From: Acrasis kona
Taxonomy: Eukaryota; Heterolobosea; Eutetramitea; Acrasida; Acrasidae
Reading direction: 5' to 3'
Assembly: GCA_026419775.2 (NCBI GenBank)
Contig: JAOPGA020000730.1
Location: 1-64,000 of the forward strand
Length of the DNA: 64,000 nt
The position numbers and the translations under genes are program-made. The notes beneath the pieces are model-generated. The model was not told where the DNA came from, made no database searches, and was given only the letters and a program-made list of their open reading frames with translations. Positions 7,801 through 60,933 of this stretch are shown one piece after another. How positions within the stretch are numbered: the stretch's first letter is position 1; each line of letters opens with the position of its first letter.

Positions 7801-8652
7801 AGTTTCACTGTGCGTGAAAGTGGAATAGTGTTGAACAAAACCATTTTAACGCCAGTATTATCATCTGGTAACTATATTGCTACTTGGAAATATTCAAAAG
7901 ATGGAATTATTAGTTCTGGTATGGATCAAGTTAGAATAAAACAAATCAGATTATTTACTGATAACTGTTCTACAAGGACTTTGGCACCCACACAAGCTCC
8001 AACTATAGCACCTTCTTTAGCACCTGTTGCTACAAATACTCCCATTGCAACAAGAACACCTGTTATTGTTAAGTTTAGTATTGATAACTATCTTTATGGT
8101 TTCTACTTGAATGGCGCTCAGGTGCGTGGTAATAACAGCATTGAATGGATGGAAACACAAACAATAGAGTTATCATTAAAAGAAAATGATGTCGTTGCAG
8201 TTTATGGTTATAACACACAAGCACAACAAGGTGTTCTTGCAGAAATCGTCGATAAGAACACTGGAAGAGTAATTACTACTACAGGTAGTCACTGGAGATG
8301 CAGTGGTAATGTTAACCTTGACAAAGGTAGTAACTTTACTGGATATAACTCACCTGTTACATATGGTAACAATAACAACAATGCTGTATGGGGAACAAGA
8401 CCTAGTATATCCCTTAATGCAATGTGGATATGGGATATAAGCTCACAAAGAGAGTACTCTTACAGTGTATGCAAAGTACAAATCACACAAGAAATGTTGT
8501 TGTCAAATAGAAGTGAACCTACACATACCCCCACTCCAACAGCAACTCAATTCTCAAGAATTCCTTCACCCTCTCCTCAAGTGTCGTCAGCTTCGGTTGT
8601 TGGATTCAATTTTGTTATTTTGCTTTTCACCTTGTTGTTCTTGATGTTTTAA
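1827..8652 (+). CDS. Giant modular Thr/Pro-rich secreted surface protein, +1 frame break at 7737
   Basis: About 2275 codons if one base is skipped near 7737. Residues 1-20 are a signal peptide. Six copies of a ~130-residue beta-sandwich-like module (conserved DNY-x-GLY-x-NG, HWRCSG, NAMWIWD, CKVQ) begin near residues 25, 160, 362, 996, 1468 and, after the break, near nt 8074. Three copies of a second ~140-residue module (CTQLS...W, SGDN, SRLDF...F, EFDYWM, DQVRIRR) begin near 1147, 1670 and 1904. They are joined by long Thr/Pro/Ser linkers that look heavily O-glycosylated. The C-terminus is a short hydrophobic stretch with no cytoplasmic tail, as in GPI-anchor signals. I do not recognise the modules; the fold resembles galactose-binding-type domains only by Trp and Gly pattern. 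Likely an adhesin or cell-coat protein. The third copy of the second module is split by TGA at 7737-7739 and continues one base out of frame. Confidence 0.8.
5402..5815 (+). repeat. Internal duplication, unit 1 (414 bp)
   Basis: Nearly identical to 6974-7387 at an exact offset of 1572 bp, with a handful of substitutions. It encodes the second half of the CTQLS module and the start of the following Thr/Pro linker. Confidence 0.9.
6974..7387 (+). repeat. Internal duplication, unit 2 (414 bp)
   Basis: Partner of 5402-5815. Identity ends abruptly inside the Thr/Pro linker, where the two linkers diverge. This fits unequal exchange or gene conversion between modules. Confidence 0.9.
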
Positions 8653-17399: not shown

Positions 17400-18641
17400 T
17401 TATGTTGTATACCCAATACCCTCACAAGTGACTACAAAACTAGATTCACTCTTCTCAACTGTGAACGTGGCACCAGTCATTTTGCTACAAAAATGTATAG
17501 CGGTGGAAGTGTGGTCCGTAAGAGGTCCAACGCGTAGTCTAGATGTCCCTTTTGATAATGCCATGAAAATGATTAATTGATCTTGAGTGTATTCATCAAC
17601 ACATCCATCATCCGTCCATTGCTTCAATAAATGTGCAACAATGTCTTTTGAATGTGGGGTGGCATCAAAGTGTGTCTTTTTGCTCTTTAAATCAATTGTA
17701 GCATCAGATCCATACAAACAACCAGTGTCACTCTTGGCAGCGAGTGTTACTATTAAAAAGTCGGAATGTCTATTGGTTACATCTTTTTTGATATTAAAGA
17801 TGACTTCAACATTTTTTCCGAAGGAAGTTGTAATGTCTCTACCAATCTGTTTACATAATTTATCGGCGTTACTCAAACTCTTTTCGTCTGTATAAACACA
17901 ATCAATTTGTATTTCTGATACTTTTGTGCCCTTGTCGACGAGATCGATTGAAGGAATGGGTAGATGAATGGATGGTATTTTCAAGTTAATCACACCACCT
18001 ATCAGTGATTAGAAGACAAGGAATTTAACAAGCAAACCTCCTTTGGGGTAAAATCCCCTCTTCTCGATATTTAAATCGATTGAGATACCAAAGTGTTTGG
18101 ATAATGTTACCAAAAAAATGTTGGTGAAGATATCTACAGGTGGACTAAAAGATACATCTGTGCCACCCTTCAGTACCACTGGTGGTCTGGAGTCACCTTC
18201 GTATCTGCTGAACAATAAAGCAGGTAGTAATGCCTGGGCCAAAAGAGTGCAGGATCCAGCAGTTCTAATGTCACCAACAATTTTTTGTGATGACAACATA
18301 GTGTCTTGGGGGATGAAAGTAAACTCCGTGGAACCTTTTGTCGCTCCTATAATTTTATGATATGGGTTTAGTTTTGATATCAGTTCAATACACATCAGAT
18401 GTTGGGGTTGTAATCCTGGAACCTTCCTGCCCTTTCGCACATTGTTTACTTGAATTGACTTGCCTGTAATATGTGATAGAGACATTGAGTTACGAATAAT
18501 CTGGCCACCGCCCTCTCCGTAAGACCCATCAACTTGTATTGGTTCCATTGTTTTGTTCCTGCATGTTCCAAAATTTTGTAACAAGTGTTGATTAACACTT
18601 GTTACAAAATTACGAACACAAAGTTTTCTCAACATTTTCAA
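17400..18641 (-). CDS. RTCA: RNA 3'-terminal phosphate cyclase
   Basis: Two exons: 18641-18038 and 17998-17400, with a 39-nt intron at 18037-17999. The splice creates the expected YPKGGG followed by VINLKIP. The product is 400 residues from the first ATG, or 369 from the ATG at 18548 (MEPIQVDGSYGEGGGQIIRN), which matches the family length of about 366. The hallmark GEGGGQI and RTAGSCTLLAQALLP motifs are present, and the catalytic His region lies in PHSKDIVAHLL/DDGCVDEYTQDQLIIFMAL. The enzyme uses ATP to convert RNA 3'-phosphate ends to 2',3'-cyclic phosphates. The extra N-terminal 31 residues are basic and amphipathic (MLRKLCVRNFVTS) and could be a mitochondrial presequence, or the first ATG may simply be unused. 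A perfect 17-bp hairpin sits in this leader. Confidence 0.93.
18573..18610. repeat. Perfect 17-bp inverted repeat, 4-nt loop, in RTCA leader
   Basis: ATTTTGTAACAAGTGTT and its exact complement are separated by GATT. In the RTCA transcript this would form a 17-bp stem between the upstream ATG (18641) and the conserved ATG (18548). It could affect start choice or stability. Confidence 0.85.
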
Positions 18642-43110: not shown

Positions 43111-44463
43111 TTATTCAACATGTTCTTCCTCGTCCCCAACCATGGAGCTGTTTTGGCTGTCGACGCTTATTTCTTCATAATCCTTCTCTAGGGCTGCCAA
43201 ATCCTCTCTTGCCTCAGCAAACTCGCCCTCTTCCATTCCTTCACCGACGTACCAATGAACAAAGGCTCTTTTGGCATACATTAAATCGAACTTTGCATTG
43301 GTTCTTGCAAAGACTTCGGCGATGGCAGTGCTGTTGCTCAACAAGGCTACGGTCTTATCGACGGGTGCCATATCCGCTCCCTTGATGACTGATGGCAAAC
43401 GATTGTTGATTCCAATCTTGAATGGACATGGTGACCAATCGACGATTTGGATACCAGCCTTGGTTCTTACGGAGGCAATTGCTTGGTTGACGTCTTTGGT
43501 GACTACATCTCCTCTGTACAGTAAGCAGCACGAGACGTATTTTCCATTGCTTGGGTTGCATCTTGCCATCATGTTGGTTGGGTCGAATGCTGCGGAGGTC
43601 AACTCTTGGACACTGTTTTGAGTGTAGTGAATCTCTTCCTTGCTGTTGACTGGCGCCAATGAGGAAAGCATAAAGTGAATGCGTGGGTATGGTACCAAGT
43701 TGGTTTGGAATTCGTTCAAGTCAACGTTCAATGAACCTGGGAATCTCAATGAGCAAGTGATTGATGACACAACTTGAGCGATGAGTCTGTTCAAGTTAGT
43801 GTAGGTTGGTCTCTCTACCTTCAACTTGTTCTTGCAAATATCATAGATGGCTTCGTTGTCAAGGACGGTAGTGACGTCGTTGTGCTCTAGTAGTGCGTGG
43901 GTGGATAGAACGGAATTGTATGGTTCAACAACAGAGTTGCTGACTTGAGGTGATGGGTAGACAGTGAAACCAAGTTTGCACTTCTTGGTGAACTCTGTGC
44001 TGATCTTTTCTAGTAGGAGTGAAGCAAAACCAGATCCAGTACCACCACCGACAGAGTTGAAGATCAAGAAACCTTGTAGGCTTGAGCAGTTGTCAGCAAT
44101 TCTGCGGATGCAGTCAATGGTCTTGTCAACCATGTCCTTACCGACGGTGTAGTGACCTCTTGCAAAGTTGTTGGCAGCGTCCTCCTTTCCAGAGATCAAT
44201 TGGCCTGGATGGTATAGTTCCTTGTAATCACCAGTGCGTACAGAGTCAATGACGGATGGTTCCAAATCAACCATGACGTTTCTTGGGACGTATCTTCCTT
44301 TGCTTGTTTCGTTGAAGAAGACACCTGGATCATTGTCACCTCTGTCGGATGCGTCCAATGTTCCATCTTGTTTGATCTTGTGTTCTTGTGCATATAATTC
44401 CCAGCATGAGTTACCGACTTGGATACCAGCTTGACCAATGTGAAGGTTGATGATTTCTCTCAT
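43111..44463 (-). CDS. Divergent alpha-tubulin (mitotic type)
   Basis: 450 residues, no intron. All key tubulin elements are present: [17 protein letters not shown] (with the MREI-type start), GGGTGSG G-box, TVYPSPQ, and the alpha-specific catalytic Glu in [20 protein letters not shown]. The H1-S2 loop is unusual: residue 40 is Asp in [17 protein letters not shown], so the acetylated Lys40 is missing. The C-terminus ends EEEHVE without terminal Tyr or Phe, so it cannot enter the detyrosination cycle. In Naegleria, spindle-specific tubulins are strongly divergent from flagellar ones, and this fits that class. Assigned as alpha rather than beta by the catalytic Glu and the start motif. Confidence 0.93.
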
Positions 44464-47323: not shown

Positions 47324-47406
47324 CGCCCACCGGGGGGCTCGAACCCCCGACCATTGGATTAAAAGTCCAACGCTCTATTTCAAGCGACCGACTGAGCTAG
47401 ACGGGC
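47324..47406 (-). tRNA. tRNA-Lys (UUU) with 10-nt D-loop insertion
   Basis: Acceptor GCCCGTC pairs with GGTGGGC; D-stem GCTC/GAGC; anticodon stem TTGGA/TCCAA with loop CTTTTAA (anticodon TTT at 47363-47361); T-stem GGGGG/CCCCC with loop TTCGAGC; discriminator G. No CCA is encoded and a T-run terminator follows. Everything is canonical except the D-loop, which has TCGCTTGAAA (47387-47378) between AGTCGG and TAGAGC. Removing these 10 nt gives a standard 73-nt tRNA-Lys. Confidence 0.95.
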
Positions 47407-47826
47407 TACATTACCTTGAATATTTGCATTATTTGTACCAATTTCAATTATCTTTAGGTTAAGGATTGGTGTATTGTTTAAAATGTGCGATGGATTAGGA
47501 ACCGAGATGCCTGTTATTTAGCATGTTCTGTTTATCTTACACCGACAGACATTATCTCGACACTATAGTCACAACACTCAGTTTGTCTTTATGTTGCTGA
47601 AGGTAATGTCGAATGCATTTCTTAGTTTTATTGTTGTAAATCAGTGTGTTGTGGTTGACAACGCTGTTTATCCAAAATATTATGGGATTACAACAAAAGG
47701 ATGTGCAGACAATCTCATTTGATTGAGTGGAAATCGCTTGTTGAATGCTTCTATACCGATTTCACTCAGTCGACGAAAGTGGTAAATAGGACAACCTTAT
47801 TATATACTAATTCAATTCACACAAAT
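47407..47826. other. Intergenic, 420 bp, nothing recognised
   Basis: No supported coding or RNA feature. Confidence 0.4.
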
Positions 47827-48144
47827 TTAACAAAGTGCTACGGCTTTCAGTTCGTATTGTTTAATTACAGTAACTGCATAATCAAGACTAAAGTGATCAA
47901 GTCTGAATCCTATAACGTTAGCTTTATTATTGCGCACGTCTACAACAAAATTACGATCAGAAGGTAACAAGCTGACAGTTTGCTTCTTCTTCCATATCCA
48001 GTTCCTCTGAAAATTTGTTTTAAACACGTTCATGACCTGAGAAGGTCTACGATACAACATAAAAAACACTTGTAGTTTTGTTTGAATAAGTTTGTAATCA
48101 AATTGTAAACAATGATGCACAATCTCAAATAAATCACGGCTCAT
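47827..48144 (-). CDS. Hypothetical protein, 105 residues
   Basis: Begins with ATG at 48144 (MSRDLFEIVHHCLQFDYK). Mixed hydrophobic and basic composition, with a Trp/Lys-rich centre (NFQRNWIWKKK). No domain recognised. It may be the first exon of a longer gene or a member of a lineage-specific family. Confidence 0.35.
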   Translation of the reverse strand: MSRDLFEIVHHCLQFDYKLIQTKLQVFFMLYRRPSQVMNVFKTNFQRNWIWKKKQTVSLLPSDRNFVVDVRNNKANVIGFRLDHFSLDYAVTVIKQYELKAVALC

Positions 48145-48220
48145 TATCGTTCTACATCTTATATACTTTGTTATTAAATCAGAATTAACAACATCATCAA
48201 CAATTCCAACAACATTAGTG

Positions 48221-48577
48221 TCACTCGAGATGACTCAATGAGTTATTGTAGCTTTTGGTAAAGTCATTTAGGGAGAGGTCTTTATTGTGTAATGTTTCAA
48301 ATGCCTTGTTAACGCTGTCCGACCAATGAGGTTTACGGTTGGCCTCCTCTGCAATTTTGATGTTGTCATATCTGGGGCCCTTCTTTTTTGCAACGTTGCT
48401 TGTCGTTGATGGTGACAAAATGTCGTCGTCTGATTCTTCTTTGTTGTCCTTGTTTGAAGTTGAAAATATTGAGTCGACAAAAGTGTTTGATAAGATGTTT
48501 TTTGTTTGTTGAATTCTTCTGTGGAACTCAACTTTTACATTGCCAACCCATGATGACGTGACATTCAAACTGATCAC
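48221..48577 (-). CDS. Hypothetical charged protein, start unresolved
   Basis: 118 open codons, extending a few codons further upstream to a TAA, with no in-frame ATG, so a missing upstream exon is likely. The N-terminal part is beta-like (NVISLNVTSSWVGNVKVEFH), followed by a disordered Ser/Asp/Lys-rich segment. No family recognised. Confidence 0.35.
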   Translation of the reverse strand: MISLNVTSSWVGNVKVEFHRRIQQTKNILSNTFVDSIFSTSNKDNKEESDDDILSPSTTSNVAKKKGPRYDNIKIAEEANRKPHWSDSVNKAFETLHNKDLSLNDFTKSYNNSLSHLE

Positions 48578-48785
48578 ATTTATATTGGAGTCATCGAGTA
48601 TTCTTTATCTATAAAGACTAAATATTTTAAATTGGGACTTCTCATGTTACAATGACTTTACTAAGAAGGTTTGATGAAAAAAGATCAGTCGCATCTTGTC
48701 CGGAAATGATGGTCATCTATTTAATCGTAGTAAACAAGAACATGTTTGTGTTGGTAATTAGTAACATTCAATTCAAAAACAACAT

Positions 48786-49556
48786 TTAATGTTTCTTGAG
48801 AGCAGATACAATAATCTTAGCAAGACCAGTTGCAGAGGCAGGGTTTTGTCCTGTGAACAAGTTTCCATCTCTAACTACATGTGGTTGCCAGTTGGCAACC
48901 TTTGTATATAGACCACCATTCCTCTTTAAAGTATCTTCTAGTGAGAATGGCATCTGTGAAGTCGTTCCACCCTCTTCCTCTTCTCCGTTAGTGTACCCTG
49001 CTACTCTCTTTCCATCGATCAAGTTCTTTCCGTTTGAGAGCCTTACATTCAATAGACCTGCTGGACCGTGGCACACGGCTGCTACAATCTTGTTGGACTC
49101 GTAGAATGCTCTTGTTAGTTGTTGGACGGCAACATCTGTAGGCAAATCGTACATGGGGCCATGACCACCGACAAAGAAGATGGCAGAGTACTTGTTTGGG
49201 TTAACATCTGAAATCTTGATGGTGTTGCTTAATTGCTTTTGCACGCTTGCATTGTTGAGGAAGTCTACGGAAATCTTGTCATCCTTGTAGTCTTGTACGC
49301 TGTAGGGATCCAATGGAGATTTGCCACCCTTTGGTGAAGCATAGTCTACTTTTAAACCAGCGTTGGTGAACACGTGATGAGGATGAGCAGCTTCTGGTAG
49401 GTAGTAGCCTGTCTTCTTGCCAGAGGTACCCAAGTCTTCGTGACTAGTGACCACGAGTAGGATTCTCTGCTCAGCATTGGCGTGGTGTGATGCTAACTTC
49501 TTTGATGCAATGGTGGTTGCAATAACGGCAATTAACAGTACCAAACCGACTCTCAT
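48786..49556 (-). CDS. Secreted DJ-1/PfpI-family protein (Hsp31-like)
   Basis: 256 residues from the ATG at 49556 (MRVGLVLLIAVIATTIA, a signal peptide). The frame is open further upstream, but this Met gives the leader. The class I glutamine amidotransferase-like fold shows ILLVVTSHEDLG, FFVGGHGPMYDLPTD and the nucleophile elbow VAAVCHGPAGL with the catalytic Cys; His follows directly. Hsp31-type members are glutathione-independent glyoxalases or chaperones. A secretory leader is unusual for this group and places it in the endomembrane system or outside. Asp/His of the triad cannot be confirmed by eye. Confidence 0.88.
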   Translation of the reverse strand: MRVGLVLLIAVIATTIASKKLASHHANAEQRILLVVTSHEDLGTSGKKTGYYLPEAAHPHHVFTNAGLKVDYASPKGGKSPLDPYSVQDYKDDKISVDFLNNASVQKQLSNTIKISDVNPNKYSAIFFVGGHGPMYDLPTDVAVQQLTRAFYESNKIVAAVCHGPAGLLNVRLSNGKNLIDGKRVAGYTNGEEEEGGTTSQMPFSLEDTLKRNGGLYTKVANWQPHVVRDGNLFTGQNPASATGLAKIIVSALKKH

Positions 49557-50411
49557 TTTTTTTGATTCCAGTACTGAGAAATCAATGTTACATCGATTTT
49601 TAATGCGCTGAAATAAACTCCGATACTCCGAATTACGCCCCAACCGTTCCTGGAGATGTCGTTTTTACAACGAGTAACGTATTTTGTTGAAATATTATTG
49701 GTGAACTAATGAATGTTATACCCTTGTGACAGCAGTTGTAAAATGGTGTTGTAATATATGAACGTTATATTCGAGTATAACGAGAATCCAGTAATGAGCT
49801 CCGCAGGCACTATAAAGTGACAAGGAGCGCGACAGAATAAATTAACAAAATATATTGATAACTCAAACACTGTTCTTTATATTACTGGACCTTACGTTTT
49901 TTATCACAAATGGCGATTCATAACATTTTGAAACGGCAAGATCAAGGGTATTAAAATTATAGCCAACCACAACAAACAATCTCCAACAACTGCTGAAATT
50001 CTTCTTGAAAACGACACAATAATCAACATTATCGGGAATTTGATGTGTCAAACATATAACATAGGAATAACGATGCAGAAGGAGAAAGATTTTTAGTATC
50101 CTTCATAGATCAGAATTCCTTCTTCCCATCTTTGACTACTTTACCGGATGGCAGATTAAACCGTACGAAACTCAAACAGACAAAGATCACTCTTGAACAC
50201 CAAGCAATTAACCCACCATGAGCGCTTTGTTGACAACGCATGCGCCTTTTGGATATCTGATGACTTTTCTCGCACTGGTATACATGTTAACCAATGCTTT
50301 AAAAGCAACCAAAGACATCAATGCAGTATCTCTTCATTAAAAAGAAGATAGGAATTATGCTCTCCAAACTAATGTCAAAACCAACAATTTGACATTGGAA
50401 GGAAAAAAGAA
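49557..50411. other. Intergenic, 855 bp, nothing recognised
   Basis: AT-rich. No ORF with a domain, no RNA gene and no clear repeat were seen on either strand. Confidence 0.45.
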
Positions 50412-50496
50412 TGGACGAGTCCGGAATTGAACCGGAGACTTCTTGCATGCTAAGCAAGCACTCTATATTAGTTATTACCAACTGAGTTACACGCCC
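50412..50496 (-). tRNA. tRNA-Ala (AGC) with 12-nt D-loop insertion
   Basis: Acceptor GGGCGTG pairs with CTCGTCC (one G-T and one T-T position); D-stem ACTC/GAGT; anticodon stem CTTGC/GCAAG with loop TTAGCAT (AGC at 50451-50449); T-stem TCCGG/CCGGA with loop TTCAATT; discriminator A; a T-run follows. The D-loop contains AATAACTAATAT (50476-50465) between AGTTGGT and AGAGTG. Without it the molecule is a normal 73-nt tRNA. The insertion falls at the same place as in the tRNA-Lys, right after the conserved GG. Confidence 0.92.
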
Positions 50497-50827
50497 TATT
50501 TACCAGTATTAGTTAAGTAACGTTGATGGTATATTAAAAATTGTTATCGTCAATAACGATTACATCATTTATCTATCAGGAGGAGGCCAGATTTATTGTA
50601 TGGAAGTTGCCCTCCTTTGACAATGAATTGTTGCGATTTTCAGATCTAGATTCCTTCGAAAGAATCGTCTGTGTTTTCATTTTCTTCATGTCCTCACCTA
50701 CTACATCGACGATACAACCTTCACCCTAAATATTTGTGTTCATCTTATCGGTTTGCCGCTCTAAATCAATCAACTTGAAAACTGTTAACAAAGAAACCAG
50801 TGATCCTGACCTAATGTCTGTGTGACG
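50497..50827. other. Intergenic, 331 bp, nothing recognised
   Basis: No supported feature; presumed promoter of the LRR/Sfi1 gene. Confidence 0.4.
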
Positions 50828-53800
50828 ATGAAATCGCAAATCCAAAACAGCTACAGATCGATAAACTGTCGGACAAATGGTCTTAATGGTACGACCAAAC
50901 TTTCAAATCGGGTTCCGTGTAATCCAACAACAAAGAAGACGAAATCTAGTTCAATGCCCTCAAATATACCAGATGTTATAGTACGCAATAAACCATATTT
51001 GATCTAACTAGATTAGTTGAGTACGGTGATTAAAAACAAGGTTAGTGGTATCACAGTGGAGCCACACAAAATAAGTGTGGTGGAAAAATATGTGTCTGTT
51101 GTGGACACTGTTCCGGAAAACCTACAGAATGCAGAAACAGTATTTTTAAGTAATAACTGCATCTCCACTCTGTTTGGCTTAAAACAATTTAAAAATATCA
51201 AAACATTATCAATAGCAAATAACTGTGTAAGATTATCAACTGCCGATTTTTGACACTCCTAGATTTCATCATTTTCAGAACTCGATCATTTGAGAGAATT
51301 GACCCAACTTAAAAATATTAATTTGGAGTTCAATCCAATTTCTCAAATGCCCTACTATCGATATCACGTCATTTACAGCATACCACAAATTAAAATCATC
51401 GATGGGAAGGACGTATCTGCACAAGAGAGATCAAAGTATCTATCCACAATCAAGAACGAAGATGGCAAGCTAGCGTTAATGTTTTCAAATGAACAGCAAA
51501 TCGCTAGAATATGTAGAGGATTAGAAGAGTTTCGATCTAGCACGGAGGTTAGACGTCGTGTTCTTTACAACATATCAAACCAAACTCAACTCGACCTGAA
51601 TGAGGTTAGTAATGTTGATTTGGTAATTGAATGTTTTGAGATGGAAACAATTCTTACAGAAGAGGACAGACTTCACATTTACGACGTCCTCCGCAAAGAA
51701 GTTCGAAAAGTATATAATCTTCGAATGTTCGGAGGCACCACAAAGGAAGCACCTAGAGTCAAAATCTCAGATCCATGGGAATCTTGTTACGCTGAAGTTA
51801 TGCACAATCAAAGTATTCGATTATCAGAGCTTAAGAGTGAACTCAACGAGGAACTAAAAAACATATCGGAACACGACGAACACTTACAAAAAAGCAATGA
51901 TACAGGAAGCATTGTAGCAGACGAAATACGCAAAGTAATTGACCACATCATAAGAGACGAAGAGACCAACATTGAAAAACAAGACTACCAAACAACAACA
52001 TTCCGAACAAACAATGCAACCACTCTAGTACATTCCCTTCCACCCAAACAAAACGAACCAACAAATGAAGAACCGACATCCACCACAACAAAACGACCCT
52101 CGACAACGACCAATACCCACAACCAAATCATTTACACAAAATCAAAAAACATCATTCCCGAACCACAACAAACAAACATCACGCGCAATCACCACAACAA
52201 TGAATCACAACAACAACAACATGAAGCCCTACAACAAATCAACTCTAGATTAAAATCAAAATTAGAATCCTTCAAAAATCAAAACGAATCAAACGTAAGA
52301 AGAGCCCAAACAGAACGAGATCAATTCACAGACGAAATCAAGATCCTTCGAAAACAATTATTAGAAAACCAACAACATTCCATCTCACAATCCGCACAAC
52401 TCAAACAAGAATACGAAAACAAGGAAAAACAATTTCACATTGATTTACAAAACCTGAAAAATCAATTACATGAATTACAAATCACACAAAATGACGAAAA
52501 GGAATCAATCCACAAAAATCAATTATTACAATTCACAAAAAATGAACATGAATTGGAACAAGTTAAAAAAACAGCATTGCAATATCAATTAGAGCTCGAA
52601 AAAATCTACAATCAAGAAAATCAATTTCAAACGGCCATTCATCATCACGAACGCACATTATTAAAGAATGGATTCCATCAATTAAAAAAATCAATCGCCA
52701 CATCAAAACAAATTACCAAAATACAATTACATTTCAATAAAGCATGTGATTTGAACCTGAAACAAAAAGTCATCTCCAAATGGATCATGCATCTCAAAAT
52801 GAAACAATTTCTCAAAAAGAAAAATCAATCAAATATTCAAAATTTAATTGATTTGTGGAACCAAAAATATCATATTAGGTCCTTACAATCCATTCAATTA
52901 CTCAAAAAGAAAAAATATTATTTTAATCAATTCAAATTAAAAACAAATCAAATCCATCACATTCAATTACTACAAGAGAGAGCAATTTTACATTACAACC
53001 TTTCAATCAAGTCCAAATGCTTTTCAAAATGGAACCAATCACTTTTGTCCATTCAATCACAAAGTGAAGAAATTTCACAAAATGTAATTCAATTCCAATC
53101 CAAATTAGTCACAAAAAAGTATTTCAAATTATGGAAGTACTTGTATCAAAAGAGAATTGAGTTATACAACAAAATGCATTTTGATCAAATTCGAAATTTG
53201 AAAATTTCAATTTTTAATCAATGGCATCATTCACAAGTATCCAAATCAACACAGCGCCTAAATCACCTTTCATCTCTACAATTCAATCAACAATTCATAA
53301 TCAAGAAATTCTTTTCCATTTGGAAACATTTATACATTCAAAAGCAATCTACTTTATTGGCACTCAACCACTACAAACAAGCAAAGAACCAAAAAACAAT
53401 TGAATTATTTTTCAAAGAATGGAAATTAAAAATCAAATCAAAGAAATTAAAAAAGCTAAAATTAGCAAAATCTTTTGATTTTTATTTCCATCAATTATAC
53501 ATCAAATCATTCGCTGTACTAAAGAATTACACGACTCGTCGTAAATTAAAATCAAAATCCAATCAAATTGCTGATTCAAATTTCAAAAATGTGATTTTAC
53601 AACGATGGAGAAGACAATTACAAATCATGAGAAATGATTACCGAACCATGAACAAAGCTATTCAATGGCACCAAACACAATTTAAATTCAAAATCAAAAG
53701 TTCATTACAAAAATGGAAAATCATTACAAAGTACAATCAATCTCTCTTACAAATCAAAAATATTGTGAATGGTAGATGGAACCGTTGCTTCATGAGAATG

Positions 53801-54715
53801 TTGATTTGTAAATGGAGAAATTTACATTACAATAAAATCAAGAATCATTACAACGATTCAAAATCAAAATTGAATGAATTGAATGTAATCATGCAACACA
53901 CCATATCCAAATCATCGCAAACACAATTAGAGAATGTGCAAATTGTTCAGAGATTGCATCAAGTCACTGCTGATTGTGCCCAATTGAAATTAAAATGTAG
54001 CGAATTAGATTCTTGCGTATTACAACATCAAGAAGAAAAAAAGGAATTTGAAATGATAGATTCATCACTAAGGGATGAAATTGAAAATTTGAAATGTGAA
54101 TTACAACAATTGAAAAATGCACCTCTACCTCCACCACCTACCAATGTTGTTGATGAAGAAAAAATGCATATGGAACAACAACAAATGTTACATTCCACAA
54201 GAATGTTAATTGATGAGAAAATCAAATTGGAAAAGAAATTAGATGCATCTCTTCAAGATCATCAATCTACTAAAGAAAGGTTAAATTCATGTTTGGAGAT
54301 GATTGGATCATTAAAGTTGTTATTAGAGGAGAAAAACAAGAAGCACTCTAGTGAGATTGAAATGTTGAAATCACAAATGAGCATGGAGATGAAACAAAGG
54401 ATGAATGCATTTGCAAATCAAAAATATGAAATGGATTTGTTGCATTCAACATCATCAGTCAAGCAACATCATCATGTAGGTCGTGAATCATATGTACATC
54501 TTGTACAAGATGAAAAATTTAATAAAAATTTAAATCAGCATTTTAATGTGATGCATCGCCATCAAGATGAAATTAAAAATTTTGAATCTTCTAGTTTAAT
54601 TTCCAGTGATAGTTTTATGGAATCTAGTGTAAATTCTACAAACAGTCACAGTGAAGATTTGGATCTTGAATTTAATAAAATGCAACAACAAATCGCGAGG
54701 TTGAATGCAAGGTGA
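50828..54715 (+). CDS. LRR / coiled-coil / Sfi1-type repeat centrosomal protein
   Basis: Exons 50828-50980, 51017-51226 and 51263-54715, with two 36-nt introns; 1271 residues. Exons 2-3 encode leucine-rich repeats (AETVFLSNNCISTLFGL, IKTLSIANNC/ISSFSELDHL, LKNINLEFNPIS) and an LRR cap (YSIPQIKIIDGKDVS) as in centrosomal LRR proteins (LRRCC1/CEP97/VFL1). Then come a disordered Thr/Asn/Gln region, a coiled coil, and about ten spaced Sfi1-like motifs with an aromatic-x2-Trp core (ISKWIMHLK, FSKWNQSL, FKLWKYLY, FNQWHHSQ, FSIWKHLY, FKEWKLKI, LQRWRRQL, LQKWKII, ICKWRNLHY). A second coiled coil ends the protein. Sfi1 repeats bind centrin. Probable role at the microtubule-organising centre or basal body. 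Confidence 0.82.
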
Positions 54716-54831
54716 TTGATTGTAAATAAAAATGTATTTTTATGTTATTTTTGATTTTTTCTGGTTGAGTTGTGTTGAGCGCCAAGGGTTGTCAGTTTCT
54801 CTCCATTGAAGCTTTCGAAAAATTAACCAAT

Positions 54832-55899
54832 ATGAGCGACAACGATAGAGGTTCTGGTGTGTATGGTGGTGATCTGTTTCGGACTCAAAGTAAAATCAAA
54901 CTACCAGCAAAGCCCACTATTGATGGTTCTCCTCAAGGAGCAAATCATTCATCTAGAAACACATTATCTGACGACGTTGGTTTTGCGACAAATCTTTCGG
55001 ATGAAATTGAAAAAATGAAGAAGAAAGACGAAATGTACGATAAACAATTCCAGAATTATGAAAAGTATTTGAACCCGATAAGTCCCAAATTCTCAGGAAC
55101 CAATTCCACCTATTCTTTTGAAGGAAACGAAAATTTAATATCACACATTGATGAACTGCTTGAAGAGTTTAGAAGAGAAACAAACCTTGTCAGACAAAAT
55201 GCTCTGTCCGTAACAGCTAACCAACTTACGGATACTTTTAAACCGAGGGAAGTTTCGTTCGAGAAGCTAGAACCACCGCCACTACCTGTCTCAGAGTCGG
55301 GTCCAAAGACAACGTTTGAACCAGATTATGAAGTAGAATACGAAAACACACTCAAATCCAGAACACCTTCATCTAAAAACCAATATGCTCTCGATCACTA
55401 TCACGTTGCAGAACCAGATACACCAAACATGCACAAGACACCGAAAGCTGTTAAAGGATCAGAACACTTGGTATCACCGTCTCCATTCACCAGGTTAAAA
55501 AATTCAGATGCCAAAGGATTCTCCTCATCACCCCTATCTCAACCAGATTTCAACCAATCACCACTCAATCACACATTCAACAGATCACCAGTCGACAATA
55601 ACACTTTTAACCAAACGCTCAACAGCCCAACCAACAACACCAGAACACAACAAACCCTATACGCACCCTACTTTCACTCTCTAGAAAACAACAACACCAC
55701 AACTGCACCAGAACAAATCCCTCCACCAAGAACAAACAACAACCACGAAGAAATCACATCGCTCAAGGTAGAAAACATTCAACTACGTGATCAAGTCAAT
55801 AAACTCCAATCACAAGTAGCATCACTACAAACACGCATGGATGGATTAGAATCAAACATGGATCACATTTTGAAATTATTAACAATGCAACATTTATAA
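54832..55899 (+). CDS. Hypothetical protein with C-terminal coiled coil
   Basis: 355 residues from the ATG at 54832. Mostly Ser/Pro/Asn-rich and disordered, with proline-rich patches (EPPPLPVSESG, QIPPPRTNNN). A 45-residue leucine heptad coiled coil ends the protein (EITSLKVENIQLRDQVNKLQ). Repeated PxxF-type elements (QSPLNHTFNRSPVDNNTF). No known domain. Its stop is 18 bp from the stop of the convergent BAG6-like gene. Confidence 0.6.
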   Translation: MSDNDRGSGVYGGDLFRTQSKIKLPAKPTIDGSPQGANHSSRNTLSDDVGFATNLSDEIEKMKKKDEMYDKQFQNYEKYLNPISPKFSGTNSTYSFEGNENLISHIDELLEEFRRETNLVRQNALSVTANQLTDTFKPREVSFEKLEPPPLPVSESGPKTTFEPDYEVEYENTLKSRTPSSKNQYALDHYHVAEPDTPNMHKTPKAVKGSEHLVSPSPFTRLKNSDAKGFSSSPLSQPDFNQSPLNHTFNRSPVDNNTFNQTLNSPTNNTRTQQTLYAPYFHSLENNNTTTAPEQIPPPRTNNNHEEITSLKVENIQLRDQVNKLQSQVASLQTRMDGLESNMDHILKLLTMQHL

Positions 55900-55917
55900 A
55901 AATATTTTTATTCATCA

Positions 55918-58445
55918 TCAATCGAGGTCTTGTTCTTCTTCTTCGGACTCTTCGGAGTATCTTGATTCCTCTTTCTCTTGTTCGACTACAACACCGCCCT
56001 GTTAAGCTAAGAAATAAAAAAAACAAAACAAGATTACCTTTCTGCCAGAATAAGCTTCGCTCTGTTGCGTATTGACGCCCGTGTTGTTATTCATCACCAA
56101 TCGATCTTGTTGCAACGTGTTGGTAATTCTCTCGATCGTCTCTTCGTCCAAATCTTGTCCCCACTGCTGTTGTTGTCTAACTAATTGTTGTGGTCTTTGA
56201 ACCGATTGTTGTTGTTGTTGTTGAACAATTGCTCGTTGTTGTTGTTGTTGTTGTTCGACTGGACTAGAAGGAGATGCACTCGTGGTGGTGGTGGTAGTAG
56301 CAACAGAAGAAGATGATGGTGCCTCTGTGAACGAAAATTCACGCTGTGGATGTAAATTCTTATAAATCAAATAATTGCGATTGATAAAATCGGTGCATGC
56401 ATTCACCACAAATCCGCTCAATGCGCTCAAATTGGATGGCAATCCGCTCATCAACTTTTTGACCAACAAGTTGACCATGGTGTTGCTGTAGATTGGATTG
56501 TTGACGAATCGAACGGTCATCAAATCAACCAATTCACCAGTGCACATGTACACCACTTGCTTGATGCAACTGCTAAATGTAGAATCACGATCCGATCGTA
56601 AAATGTGAGAATAATTAGAAGCGATGGATTCCGATGTGGAATCGTCCATGATCAAATCAATCACGCACGATAAATACGTTCGTAAGATTTTGATCGAATC
56701 CGAAATCAACGAATCTACTTGGTTGGTTCCCTCGTTGAGCGCATTCATGATTTCTGCATCTCGTCGACATTCTTGTTCGATGAATGTTAATGCTCTCTCT
56801 ACGAGCTGCGAACGAGTGGTTCCGTCGACGAGGTATCGCTCTAGCAAGTGATCCCTGATGGGTTGTCTTGTGGATTCCAATACGCTCCAATCGCCTGATG
56901 CAAGGGATGTGATTCCGCTCATGCGTAGATTGCTGATCGCTACTTGGACGAATGCATCGAATGGATTGTCGCTGTTGACGTCAACGTTGAGAGCAGTTGC
57001 TGCTTGCGTTAACCAATCGGAAACATTTTGTTGTGGTTGTGATTGTGGATTCAAGATGGATGCATTACCATTGTTGCCCATCATGAATGAAAATGGATTT
57101 GATTGTGATGACTGAGATGGTAATGTAGAAGATTGTTGACCGTTGATGAATCCTTGGACCATTGGCATGGCTTGTTGAATGAGTCCATTCAGATCGATTC
57201 CTGCACCACTTCCTACGCTTCCAAGACTTCCTAATAGATTGGCAAATGGATTCACAGGTGGTTGATTGTTCGTGTTGGATTGTGTTGGTTGTTGTTGTGA
57301 TGGAGATGGTTGGGTGAATGGAGATGTTGATGTTGGTTGTTGTTGTTGTTGTTGTTGTGGTGCACCTTGTTGTTGTCTTGAACGAATGTTTTGAACGACG
57401 GAATGAGGTACTTGTACCTGTTGTTCGGATACAATTGTTAATGTGCCACCTTGTGGTTGTGGACCTGTGCTGTGAGTGCGGTGTCTGGTGTGACTTGATT
57501 GCATGTTGATCTGACTTTGAAGCCTTGCTAGTTGATCAGGTAGGGTTGCTAATTCTGATGGAGTCGCATGAACATGGATGTTGATTCCATTCACAGTTGA
57601 TCTTTGAGGCTGTTGCTGTTGTTGATGATTGGGCTGAGTGTGACTTTGTAGTAATTGTAAAAGTGACTGCCTATCATCTGATGTCAAGGGTGTGTTGTTG
57701 GTTAGACTTGCAGTGAGTGCTTGGAGACGTTGCTGGTCTAATTGAGGAGCGACGCGCTGCTGTTGTTGCTGCTGTTGCTGTTGTGGTTGTGGTTGGGCTC
57801 CATTCTGAATGAGTTGGCCAATTGAACTTACAAGCTAAAATTCGTTAGTTAAAATTAAAAGTGAACTTTATATGTACGTTAGTTAACTGGGCGGGTGACT
57901 GAAGCCGTATGGGACCCATGATGGTTTGTTGATGCTGTTGATTGGGACCTTGAGGTCTTGGTGGGATTTGACTAAAAGAATTGGCGCCAGATGTAGGGAA
58001 GTTGAGTGTCGGGGCCTGTGGTTGTTGTGGCTGTGGGGGACCTGAAGGATTTGATGAACTCTGTGTTGCTGCTGACGCTGATCCGCTACTGGTACTGGAG
58101 GATTGATCCGCACCTGCTCTATTTGCGATAGCAACCAAATTCACGATACTGCCTTCTTTGATATCTATGATGGTGGATAAACAAATAACGATAAAGTTGA
58201 AACGTACCATATTCGGAGATCTTAAAATCATCCTTCATTAATTTTCCTTTAATGATCAATCTTTGTTTGTTCGCTTCCATAATGCCCATTGCGGCAAGCT
58301 TCTCTTTGAGCTCCCTTACAGTAGTCTATTCAACAATAAATAATCAATGCCATAACGAACAAACATTTCTTGAGACTTCTACGGTCACAGGGTTACTGCT
58401 CGTTATAAACTTGACGCTTATATTGAACGTATCGGTGTTGGACAT
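55918..58445 (-). CDS. BAG6/Scythe-like ubiquitin-like chaperone
   Basis: Five exons on the minus strand: 58445-58365, 58325-58208, 58164-57878, 57834-56038, 55998-55918; introns 39, 43, 43 and 39 nt. The product is 787 residues. Exons 1-3 build an N-terminal ubiquitin-like domain (FNISVKFITSSNPVTVEV, TTVRELKEKLAAMGI, QRLIIKGKLMKDD, IKEGSIVNLV). A Pro/Gln-rich region with poly-Gln follows. Then comes a helical domain (about 440-600: DNPFDAFVQVAISNLRMSG, ERALTFIEQECRRDAEIM, LVKKLMSGLPSNLS) resembling the BAG6 conserved region, and an acidic C-terminus. BAG6 captures mislocalised membrane proteins and hands them to the tail-anchor or proteasome pathways. Assignment rests on domain order, not on a diagnostic motif. 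Confidence 0.75.
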
Positions 58446-58490
58446 GTTTATAGGAAAGTGATGGCCAAGTTGTCAACCTTGATTACAATT

Positions 58491-59649
58491 TTATTCTGCT
58501 TTTACAACTTTTGATGGTTGGCTGCCCTCATCTTCTGCTTTTCTCTTTTCTCCTACTTGGGCGTCGCTACCTTCGTCCTTTCCACGTCCCTTACCACCTT
58601 TACCACCTCTTCCGCCTTTTCCACCTCTTCCGCCGCGGCCACCTTTGCCTCCACGACCACCTTTTCCACCCTTTTGTCTAGCGGCACCAGCTGCAACCTT
58701 GTCGGCGACCATTCTTTCGTAGAATTCCTTTTCGTCGGATCCTGATGGGACGCTCAACTCAACCTTGTTTCCACCAATTTGTGTCTCCTTAGTGGTCATC
58801 TCTTCTTGTGCCTTCTTTGCAGCGTCGGCTTGTGTATATCTTACTAGTGCTTGTGTCTTATCATCCTTGTATGGGAAGTCAACATATGCTGCCGACCCGT
58901 ATTCGTTGGCAATGTCTTTGATGGTTGCGAAAGTGACATCGGAGGCCTCACCAATGTTCTTAATGTATAAAAGGCAACCTTCGTCGTATTTTAGCTCCTT
59001 CAAGGCGGATTCTATTTGTGAGTCTAGTTTGGCTTTTTTGGCCTTCTCCTTTTGTTCTTCTCTGCCTTTGGATTTCTCCTCAGACCATTCGGCTCTTGTC
59101 TTGATTATCAAAGGTGCCTCATCTGTCTCTGAAAATTTAAGGTCTTTGTTCTCCAAGAACTTCTTGGCGACTTCCTCAGATTTGAAGAGGATGAATGCAC
59201 TTTGCTTAAAGTCCTTTGTTTGGTTGTGGTATCTCATTCTTACTGCCTCAACCTCACCGAACTTGGAGAAGAAGCCTTGGAGTGAGTCAAGGGTGGAGTC
59301 TTTTGGTAGACCCTTTACATAAACTGTTCTGCTCTCGGCTGTATCAACCTCTGGAAGAGGTGTGATACGTCTCATCATGGTGTTATCGTCAGAAACTTGA
59401 AGCATTGGGCTCTTCTTTGCTGCCTCTACAACAACATTCTTATCTGTTGTGAGCGATTGCATTCTCTTGAATGAAGCAATTGTGTCAACACTTACATCTT
59501 CAATAATGTTATAAACGAAATGTTTTTAAATACTTACATCCTTCAGGGTGGTTTGCAACCAATGCTCTTAAAAAGCGATCTGAAGGGAGGTTGGCATCTG
59601 AAAAATAAAATTCTATTTGCTTTAGGACTTGATCTTGTGTTGAGGCCAT
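58491..59649 (-). CDS. SSB: La protein (La motif, RRM, RGG tail)
   Basis: Exons 59649-59538 and 59497-58491; the 40-nt intron joins NHPEG to YVSVDTIASFKRMQSL. The product is 372 residues. The La motif is clear: QVLKQIEFYFSDANLPSDRF, RALVANHPEG, FKRMQSLTTD. RRM1 begins SRTVYVKGLPKDST, RRM2 LLYIKNIGEASDV. The C-terminus has repeated KGGRGG units and an acidic/basic end with a likely nuclear signal (GEKRKAE). La binds UUU-OH ends of Pol III transcripts, including pre-tRNAs, and would handle the tRNAs of this window. 46 bp separate it from the BAG6-like gene downstream. Confidence 0.95.
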
Positions 59650-59844
59650 GTTGTGTGAAAGTTTCAAACGGTAAGTTCAATTGAATAAGATTACAATAAA
59701 TGGTTGAGTGAATTATAATGAAGAACTTGTGTTGTGAACATAAAGAGTTGTAAATGAAGCCATTATAATTCTTGTCAATCATTGGTGTCGTCTTCAAGAT
59801 GTTGGAGCAGTTTGTTGAAAAGTATTACAACAAAATCTAATCTT

Positions 59845-60720
59845 ATGTATGCCAAGAGAGATCGGAGGAGACCTACCAAAAGACAGAAAATATCAGAAGA
59901 GTATGTAGTGCCGGAAATAGAATGGACCTGTGTTCTTCCCAAAGAAATATTCTCCAAGATATTGTCTTTTATAGGACTTGACGCTTGGCCAGTTATAATA
60001 ACATGCAAAAGCTTCTACTTTTATATGGATACCAACCTTGACCACGCAAAACTTTTGGTGGCACAGTTATTAAATGTCAATTCTACTTCATTGTCTTTGG
60101 ATGATAGCGTCAAGTGGGGGAGACTATTCAAAACTCTAACGAAAAACCACATGAAGGGTAGAATACAACCGATGGTGCCTCAAAGACAAGAAGACATAAA
60201 TCATGTGAGGGAATTGAAATCAAACCTGGAGTCTTTACTTGTTCATATTAGTTTCAAAAAGTATTGTATATGTAATAATATTCCAAATTGGATGCAAGTA
60301 GGAACAATTTTCGATAAACTCGAGCTTACTACTTACGAAAATGACTGCTACGCTGACGTACTTGAGGTCCGTGCCAAATGGCGCCTTGTTTGCCTCACCG
60401 GTAAGGTCATATTATTCACGGCCACATACTATTATGCCGGTGGAACGTGCGAACAAAAGCGCTTCTTTAATTTTAATACGTCACCCAGTATTGACATGAA
60501 GGATTTTGCTTCTGAAGTTACAATTGATGAGGAGAGCCGAAAAAATGTTACTTTGGATGTATTGAAGAAGTATATTTCTATTTGCCTCGCCATGACTGAT
60601 TTAGATTGTACTGAAGACCGAAGTGGATGGAGATATTATGAGGAAAACTTTGACGAAATGTGGAAGGAGAAAGAAGAAGGTAATAATCTAAAAAATAGAT
60701 ACTGCGGACTTTCATACTAG
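59845..60720 (+). CDS. F-box-like protein
   Basis: 291 residues from the ATG at 59845. A basic N-terminus (KRDRRRPTKRQK) is followed by an F-box-like motif near residue 35 (LPKEIFSKILSFIGLDAWPV, ITCKSFYFYM). The rest has no recognised repeats. F-box proteins link substrates to SCF ubiquitin ligases. The frame is open upstream to 59782 without ATG. Divergent with La, about 195 bp between start codons. Confidence 0.65.
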   Translation: MYAKRDRRRPTKRQKISEEYVVPEIEWTCVLPKEIFSKILSFIGLDAWPVIITCKSFYFYMDTNLDHAKLLVAQLLNVNSTSLSLDDSVKWGRLFKTLTKNHMKGRIQPMVPQRQEDINHVRELKSNLESLLVHISFKKYCICNNIPNWMQVGTIFDKLELTTYENDCYADVLEVRAKWRLVCLTGKVILFTATYYYAGGTCEQKRFFNFNTSPSIDMKDFASEVTIDEESRKNVTLDVLKKYISICLAMTDLDCTEDRSGWRYYEENFDEMWKEKEEGNNLKNRYCGLSY

Positions 60721-60786
60721 CGATTAAACAAAAATTGGTTAACAGCATAAAAAAACTATATATTTATAATAAATGATAATTTTCAA

Positions 60787-60879
60787 TGGCGATATGATCG
60801 AGTTTATTACGATACTGGTCTAAGATGGACGACTCAAGTTCGTCTCCGAAAGGGCGTGGGTTCAAATCCCACTGTCGTC
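60787..60879 (+). tRNA. tRNA-Leu (CAA) with 13-nt D-loop insertion and no anticodon intron
   Basis: Acceptor GGCGATA pairs with TGTCGTC; D-stem ATC/GAT; anticodon stem GACGA/TCGTC with loop CTCAAGT (CAA at 60834-60836); long variable arm TCCGAAAGGGC; T-stem GTGGG/CCCAC with loop TTCAAAT; discriminator A; CTTTT follows. The D-loop holds TTATTACGATACT (60803-60815) between GAGT and GGTCTAA. Unlike Lys and Ala, the insertion lies before the conserved GG. Leu-CAA genes often have an intron next to the anticodon in other eukaryotes; none is present here. Confidence 0.92.
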
Positions 60880-60933
60880 ACTTTTATAAAACGATTAACT
60901 ATTACGATTTTTGCATCATAACTGGTTGCTGAT

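Follow-up and report, generated by a model that had tools for sequence, protein, structure and literature searches.

What do the additional bases in the D-loops of Acrasis kona tRNA genes represent? The question arises from a window of 64,000 nucleotides (nt), positions 1–64000 of contig C355, in a 37.35-Mb assembly of 1021 contigs (44.02 Mbp according to PMC11589745; here and below, published work is cited from the available parts of the papers). A. kona is a free-living, non-photosynthetic heterolobosean amoeba, and the tRNA-Lys, tRNA-Ala and tRNA-Leu genes of this window each carry a short insert in the D-loop. A first-pass annotation read these inserts either as D-loop introns removed by a dedicated splicing route or as part of the mature tRNAs, whose D-arms would then be enlarged. 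From comparison of gene sequences across the genome we put a probability of roughly 0.93 on the inserts being bulge-helix-bulge (BHB) introns at ectopic positions of the tRNA genes.

Three tRNA genes with D-loop inserts

At its gathering score the Rfam model RF00005 identifies exactly three tRNAs in the window, all with additional D-loop bases, and a permissive scan found no tRNA in the window beyond these. ARAGORN missed the Lys and Ala genes and called Leu alone, with a wrong (truncated) 5′ end. The genes, their inserts and the exon strand of the predicted BHB central helix (H5′) are listed below; site numbers throughout are our own reading of standard tRNA numbering.

47324..47406, minus strand: insert-bearing tRNA-Lys(UUU), 83 nt (RF00005 59.3 bits, full model 1-71)
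47377..47386, minus strand: Lys-UUU D-loop insert (predicted intron), 10 nt, at about 20/21, read from the sequence as AGTCGGT-CGCTTGAAAT-AGAGC
47389..47392, minus strand: Lys-UUU H5′, GTCG, with 3/4 computed pairs (see below)
50412..50496, minus strand: insert-bearing tRNA-Ala(AGC), 85 nt (RF00005 51.6 bits)
50465..50476, minus strand: Ala-AGC D-loop insert (predicted intron), 12 nt, at about 20/21, read from the sequence as AGTTGGT-AATAACTAATAT-AGAGT
50479..50482, minus strand: Ala-AGC H5′, GTTG, 4/4 pairs with insert TAAT at 50467–50470
60788..60880, plus strand: insert-bearing tRNA-Leu(CAA), 93 nt (RF00005 40.3 bits)
60803..60815, plus strand: Leu-CAA D-loop insert (predicted intron), 13 nt, at about 15/16, read from the sequence as GATCGAG-TTTATTACGATAC-TGGTC
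60797..60800, plus strand: Leu-CAA H5′, ATCG (5′ strand of the D-stem), 4/4 pairs with insert CGAT at 60810–60813

The annotated description of these genes holds in detail. The inserts are 10, 12 and 13 nt long, in D-loops of 18, 20 and 24 nt; they follow GGU in Lys and Ala and precede UGG in Leu, and clean removal of each leaves a textbook tRNA. In Lys-UUU the exon GTCG makes three of four pairs with insert TGAA at 47379–47382, the outer pair being G.A.

Distribution of inserts across the genome

Loci were gathered by DNA searches with the three window genes, by two B-box motif searches (for the second, 45 chosen places out of the 100 listed were added, some others being already covered) and from small extra stretches, and were parsed by exon patterns. 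The resulting counts cover genes with conserved exons only and are query-biased. They leave out L079, L097, L100, L168, L185, L237, L238 and the 5′ part of L157, which are degenerate, partial or of unlisted families. In a genome scan with RF00005, 63 of 2352 candidates were scored and 59 came through, none of them one of the window genes.

The parse gave 184 D-loop records from 29 isoacceptors, 129 with an insert and 55 without. Insert-bearing genes were found for 22 of these isoacceptors (Lys-UUU, Lys-CUU, Ala-AGC, Ala-UGC, Ala-CGC, Leu-CAA, Leu-UAG, Gly-UCC, Asp, Glu-CUC, Pro-UGG, Ser-AGA, Ser-UGA, Tyr, Val-AAC, Gln-UUG, Asn, Ile-AAU, Arg-UCG, Arg-CCU, Arg-ACG and Arg-UCU), and no insert was seen in the sampled genes for Met (8 records), Trp (4), His (2), Pro-CGG (2), Thr-UGU, Gly-CCC and Leu-CAG (1 each). 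The genome-wide system proposed in the first-pass annotation is borne out by this wide spread, with the refinement that some tRNA genes carry no insert, seven of the sampled isoacceptors lacking it.

A less biased sample was provided by the first 100 listed places, in contig order, of a B-box search with GGTTCRAWTCC, which occurs 264 times in the genome as against 27 for the reversed control. We recognised 62 of these places as tRNA genes; among the 38 unrecognised, at least one (L168) is a partial Val gene. D-loop inserts are present in 43 of the 62, nine of the 43 also having an intron at the canonical position 37/38. In two more only a 37/38 intron was recognised, and 17 have neither. A concatenated yeast tRNA query gave 12 matches in the genome, Pro or Ser throughout. 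Four loci (L123, L145, L165 and L176) share a repeat in which GGTTCGATTCC resembles a B-box and the DNA upstream is conserved; it is not recognisable as a tRNA and is perhaps another RNA polymerase III element.

The inserts lie at about 15/16, 17/18, 20/21 and 21/22. There are 103 distinct ones of 9–28 nt, 99 of them within 9–17 nt, and the commonest length is 10 nt (37 of 103); they end in AT (71), AA (15), AC (12) or otherwise (5). The Glu-CUC inserts (L110, L118, L171) are far longer than others at 26–28 nt, and all start with TTACAA. ARAGORN placed the 5′ end correctly in 18 of the 103 unspliced sequences and in 98 of the 103 joined ones.

Nearly constant tRNA bodies and variable inserts

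Junctions were set so that the joined body equals that of the insert-free gene, and in some genes they can slide by one base. For Ala-AGC, 17 insert-bearing copies share one joined body and contain 12 distinct inserts (9–13 nt), and the body of the insert-free copy (L078) is identical to it. For Lys-UUU, six genes have the insert at about 15/16 and five at about 20/21, with one joined body for all 11; at the latter site the four copies besides the window gene carry two other inserts. Leu-CAA has 13 insert-bearing copies with seven distinct inserts and two insert-free copies (L098, L099), one of which is identical in body. In Asp (two genes with an insert, seven without) and Ser-UGA (one with, six without) the bodies match in 7 of 7 and 6 of 6 cases, and identical insert-free copies were also found for Leu-UAG (2 of 3) and for Asn, Arg-UCG, Arg-ACG and Ser-AGA (1 of 1 each). 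Four Gln-UUG genes give the same joined body: two have no insert (one likely duplicate having been dropped), one is interrupted in the D-loop and one at 37/38. Minor body variants do occur (three bodies among 20 Lys-CUU genes and three among seven Asn genes), and overall there are 1–4 distinct joined bodies per family, the counts for Tyr and Val (3 and 4) still including the 37/38 intron. Flanking DNA differs between most copies; a few pairs share flanks (e.g. L041 and L042) and may be recent or assembly duplicates.

The same 10-nt insert, TATTTGAAAT, is found at one D-loop site in Lys-UUU, Ile-AAU and Asn-GUU (L033, L034, L035, L192, L218 and L235). This suggests that an intron may have spread by gene conversion, or else convergence.

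Pairing between exon and insert

The inserts share a pairing register, denoted (2,2). Four bases of the exon pair with four of the insert, and each of the two runs stops 2 nt short of a junction, the 5′ junction for the exon and the 3′ junction for the insert. All four pairs form in 73 of the 103 distinct inserts and at least three in 102, whereas 2000 shufflings of the inserts gave four pairs in a mean of 3.7 (maximum 12) and at least three in a mean of 22.7 (maximum 38). In a first parse with 99 distinct inserts this register stands out as a sharp peak (70% with four pairs, mean 3.69). The runner-up, (1,3), with 43% and a mean of 3.41, is the same helix moved by one, and all other computed registers have means of no more than 2.86 pairs (99 inserts; row a = 5 not covered). 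None of 20000 permutations of the 11 exon classes gave a mean as high as that observed (null 2.37, standard deviation 0.25; 99 inserts). Because related copies are not independent, we also counted by family and site: 18 of 23 such sets have at least one insert with four pairs, and in 22 of 23 every insert has at least three.

Exon and insert covary. Exon GCTC is found with GAGC or GAGT, ATCG with CGAT, GCCG with CGGT, GTCT with AGAC, AGAT or GGAT, GTTG with CAAC, TAAT or TGAC, AGTG with CACT, AATG with CATT, GGTC with GATT and, in Arg-UCU (L233), TCAG with CTGA. A compensatory difference separates the two Leu families, ATCG and CGAT in Leu-CAA as against exon GCCG and insert CGGT in Leu-UAG, and in Arg-CCU a C-G pair alternates with T-A at one position (AGCG/AGTT vs AGTG/AATT), with three of four pairs in either. 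In a BHB motif the cut falls after the second base of each bulge. The motif is described as having 3-nt bulges on either side of a 4-base-pair (bp) helix (PMC3978253). The geometry found here is that of a BHB rule, with each predicted junction following the second base of its 3-nt bulge; the central helix is present in all but one of the distinct inserts, relaxed to 3 bp in the class with exon GTCG.

The D-stem acts as flanking helix h when the insert lies at 20/21. At 15/16 it is the insert that offers the 5′ strand of the D-stem a decoy partner. Left unconstrained, the Ala precursor has a minimum-energy fold with the D-stem, A14, the BHB helix (lengthened to 6 bp) and an ATA bulge of 3 nt in which the 3′ junction lies.

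Other origins for the inserts were considered and rejected. Duplication of tRNA pieces might supply the pairing, and in Lys the insert strand H3′ does equal the 3′ strand of the D-stem (GAGC). Duplication fails as a general cause because H3′ differs in Leu-CAA (CGAT), Leu-UAG (CGGT) and the 20/21 class (e.g. CAAC). The inserts do not have the GT...AG form of spliceosomal introns, an AG end being present in only 2 of 103, and at 9–28 nt they lack the catalytic core, hundreds of nt in size, of group I and group II self-splicing introns.

Splicing enzymes and canonical introns

The first-pass annotation had pointed to tRNA endonuclease subunits as something to look for, and Sen2, Sen34 and a Sen54-type gene were found. 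Only two PF01974 genes were found in the genome. One (L106) is Sen2, its best match among solved structures being the Sen2 chain of 7zrz (E 8e-33), and it has the N-terminal domain too; its product includes, with no mismatch, the entire 233-residue Sen2 recorded for A. kona. The other (L105) is Sen34, with the Sen34 chain of 8iss as best match (E 1e-13). There is one match above cut-off to PF12928, which we take to be the Sen54 N-terminal domain. With these a tRNA-splicing endonuclease is encoded. RtcB has a full-length match at C620 and a second at C179 that is in two pieces, the smaller one with two TAA.

Introns at 37/38 are present in the parse in five Tyr records, five Val-AAC records and one Gln record, which suggests that ordinary tRNA splicing is needed here in any case. 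Both kinds of insertion occur together in Tyr genes L114, L115, L141, L156 and L162 and in Val genes L126, L128, L161 and L173. All 129 D-loop-insert records depart from the canonical position. Two Val-UAC-like loci were read by eye and are uncounted: L185, where the insert reads as a 37/38 intron and the 5′ part is unusual, and L238, which has a D-loop insert fitting GTGG/TCAC.

Alternative explanations

Several observations weigh against BHB introns. Five of the 23 family and site sets have no insert with four pairs. The GTCG class (Lys-UUU at 20/21, Asn and Ile) mostly has an outer G.A and thus three pairs, one Ile insert has two of four, and the Gln D-loop insert fits with three of four only. 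The strict hBHBh′ motif is absent: because the inserts are short, mostly 9–17 nt, there is little or no room for h′, and the motif is relaxed and hBH-like. Folded without constraint, the precursors of Lys and Leu do not adopt the motif at minimum energy, and enforcing it costs 0.8 and 1.3 kcal/mol respectively; nor did the folding program recover a proper D-arm for these two tRNAs after joining. No match to Sen15 (PF09631) in the genome passed the cut-off (best E 0.8), in a search that could miss a small divergent gene and whose control set of 14 prokaryotic genomes is not a gauge of sensitivity for eukaryotic Sen15. Finally, the yeast enzyme reportedly measures to position 37/38 (PMC3978253).

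The lack of a Sen15 match also favours introns that are removed by something other than the Sen endonuclease, as do the account of eukaryotic Sen as bound to 37/38 (PMC3978253) and the statement that it is unknown how the Guillardia theta nucleomorph splices its very short ectopic introns (PMC4090602). We think removal of this kind unlikely, its odds overlapping with those of BHB introns as such. The only two PF01974 genes found are recognisable as Sen2 and Sen34, this enzyme family acts on substrates of BHB geometry, and the red alga Cyanidioschyzon merolae, which has such introns, is described as having Sen2, Sen34 and Sen54 and no evident Sen15 (PMC3978253). The Sen endonuclease is very probably what cuts the D-loop introns.

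If instead the inserts stayed in the mature tRNAs as enlarged, hypervariable D-loops, this would accord with the natural variability of D-loop length and with the acceptance of the window genes by the tRNA covariance model with the insert in place. The insert, however, pairs with the 5′ strand of the D-stem (15/16) or with bases 15–18, including G18 (20/21), and would hinder the D-arm or the contact between D-loop and T-loop. Motif and normal D-arm/T-loop contact would be mutually exclusive in the unspliced molecule, which speaks against retention, and the register of the pairing matches a splicing motif. We regard retention as very improbable. A still smaller chance attaches to the insert-bearing copies being silent pseudogenes, with the tRNA pool supplied by insert-free copies. 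Such copies were indeed sampled for 13 of the 22 insert-bearing isoacceptors, and degenerate or partial genes are present (L097, L100), decayed copies being under-counted because the parse demands conserved exons. For the other nine, no insert-free gene was seen in the sample, which is not the whole genome (Lys-CUU with 20 records, Lys-UUU 11, Ile 8, Tyr 5, Val-AAC 5, Ala-UGC 4, Arg-CCU 4, Glu-CUC 3 and Ala-CGC 1). The relaxed body constraint that marks pseudogenes is not seen; bodies are strongly constrained and few per family, BHB pairing is kept across differing exons, and terminators are retained, with TTTT within 15 nt of the 3′ end equally common in insert-bearing (124 of 129) and insert-free (53 of 55) genes.

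Introns are therefore strongly favoured over enlarged D-arms by the variable inserts in near-constant bodies, the insert-free twins that share those bodies, the two Lys-UUU sites that give one body, the BHB geometry and the presence of 37/38 introns. The dedicated splicing route that the annotation attached to introns is unnecessary, because Sen2, Sen34, a Sen54-type gene and RtcB are encoded and could serve.

Proposed pathway and intron turnover

RNA polymerase III would transcribe the whole insert-bearing gene, the Sen2/Sen34/Sen54 endonuclease would cut both bulges and RtcB would join the exons. Only after joining could the true D-arm fold and meet the T-loop. As only the last six or so bases of the insert are constrained, introns could be gained, lost and changed rapidly. 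Tentatively, and at slightly less than even odds, we propose an active radiation of BHB introns, which would arise and move among nuclear tRNA genes at several D-loop sites and be lost again, in paralogues that keep almost the same mature sequence. A relaxed Sen complex, perhaps with loss of Sen15 as has been described for C. merolae, would make any short sequence that completes a BHB spliceable. This proposal draws on the insert common to Lys-UUU, Asn and Ile and on the Gln-UUG paralogues with no, a D-loop or a 37/38 intron.

Other features of the window

Several protein-coding regions of the window may be mentioned. An F-box-like protein (P0140) has a single further match, at 58%, which is also in A. 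kona. An open reading frame (ORF) at 18009–18641 (minus strand) has an RNA 3′-terminal phosphate cyclase domain (PF01137, E 1e-47), that of an RNA-end-processing enzyme; that it shares the window with intron-bearing tRNAs is probably chance. An ORF at 58491–59462 (minus strand) with RRM_1 and RRM_3 domains resembles part of La, a binder of RNA polymerase III transcript ends. At 1827–8652 there is a very long Thr/Pro-rich ORF (1970 amino acids) with repeated domains, and the next ORF close behind continues the same repeats. The product of 43111–44463 (minus strand) is a divergent alpha-tubulin, to which Naegleria (67–68%) is the closest named match of normal length among the 120 matches listed.

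Significance and comparison with known systems

The first-pass annotation knew of no description for this lineage, and a literature search of titles and the starts of abstracts likewise gave none of nuclear tRNA introns in Acrasis or other Heterolobosea, most subscription papers and supplements being outside the literature searched. The papers that pair 'tRNA intron' with 'Naegleria' describe no such introns in the parts available; 924 tRNA genes are given for Naegleria gruberi (PMC2888827). In the available main text of the A. kona genome paper (PMC11589745) 'tRNA' appears only twice, both times within 'tRNA synthetases'. Reviews, as far as their available text goes, associate eukaryotic tRNA introns away from 37/38 with a red alga and with nucleomorphs, and take short D-arm inserts in other organisms for signs of pseudogenes. 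What appears to be new in A. kona is thus the presence of predicted BHB-type introns in the nucleus of a non-alga, where 43 of 62 sampled genes have them, together with their minimal size and their variation between paralogues. The 103 distinct natural variants around near-identical exons form a data set for what a eukaryotic Sen complex accepts, which bears too on the birth, movement and death of tRNA introns and on whether a missing Sen15 accompanies relaxed specificity. As ARAGORN found the right 5′ end in so few of the unspliced sequences, similar systems may be overlooked in other protists.

Ectopic tRNA introns have been described in archaea, C. merolae and nucleomorphs (PMC4090602, PMC3978253, PMC9602550, PMC8450103). 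The nuclear ectopic BHB introns of C. merolae (Soma et al. 2007, 2013, via PMC3978253, PMC4090602 and PMC9602550) resemble those of A. kona in lying outside 37/38, including in the D-arm (12/13 in Ile and 14/15 in Arg in C. merolae), in the occurrence of several introns per gene, in BHB-type motifs and in the set of Sen subunits encoded. Unlike C. merolae, A. kona belongs to a different supergroup and is non-photosynthetic, and its inserts are very short, cluster at a few D-loop sites, are present in as many as 20 sampled records per isoacceptor and vary between paralogues. The Guillardia theta nucleomorph (Kawach et al. 2005, via PMC4090602 and PMC3978253) also has short introns (3–24 nt) at non-canonical sites in eukaryotic tRNAs, and there excision has been confirmed by reverse-transcription PCR (PMC4090602, PMC3978253). 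Those introns are in nine genes of a reduced endosymbiont nucleus, and many have no defined BHB, whereas A. kona has one BHB rule in a 37-Mb assembly. The canonical eukaryotic introns at 37/38 occur in A. kona as well, in Tyr, Val and Gln, and the same endonuclease is assumed for both kinds, which differ in position, the D-loop inserts lying between about 15/16 and 21/22. Crenarchaeota, Thermoproteales in particular, have BHB introns at 20/21 (and at many other sites), and similar introns in different isodecoders are there taken as evidence of spread (PMC4090602, PMC8450103). Unlike A. kona they have archaeal endonuclease types, many more sites and also strict hBHBh′ forms.

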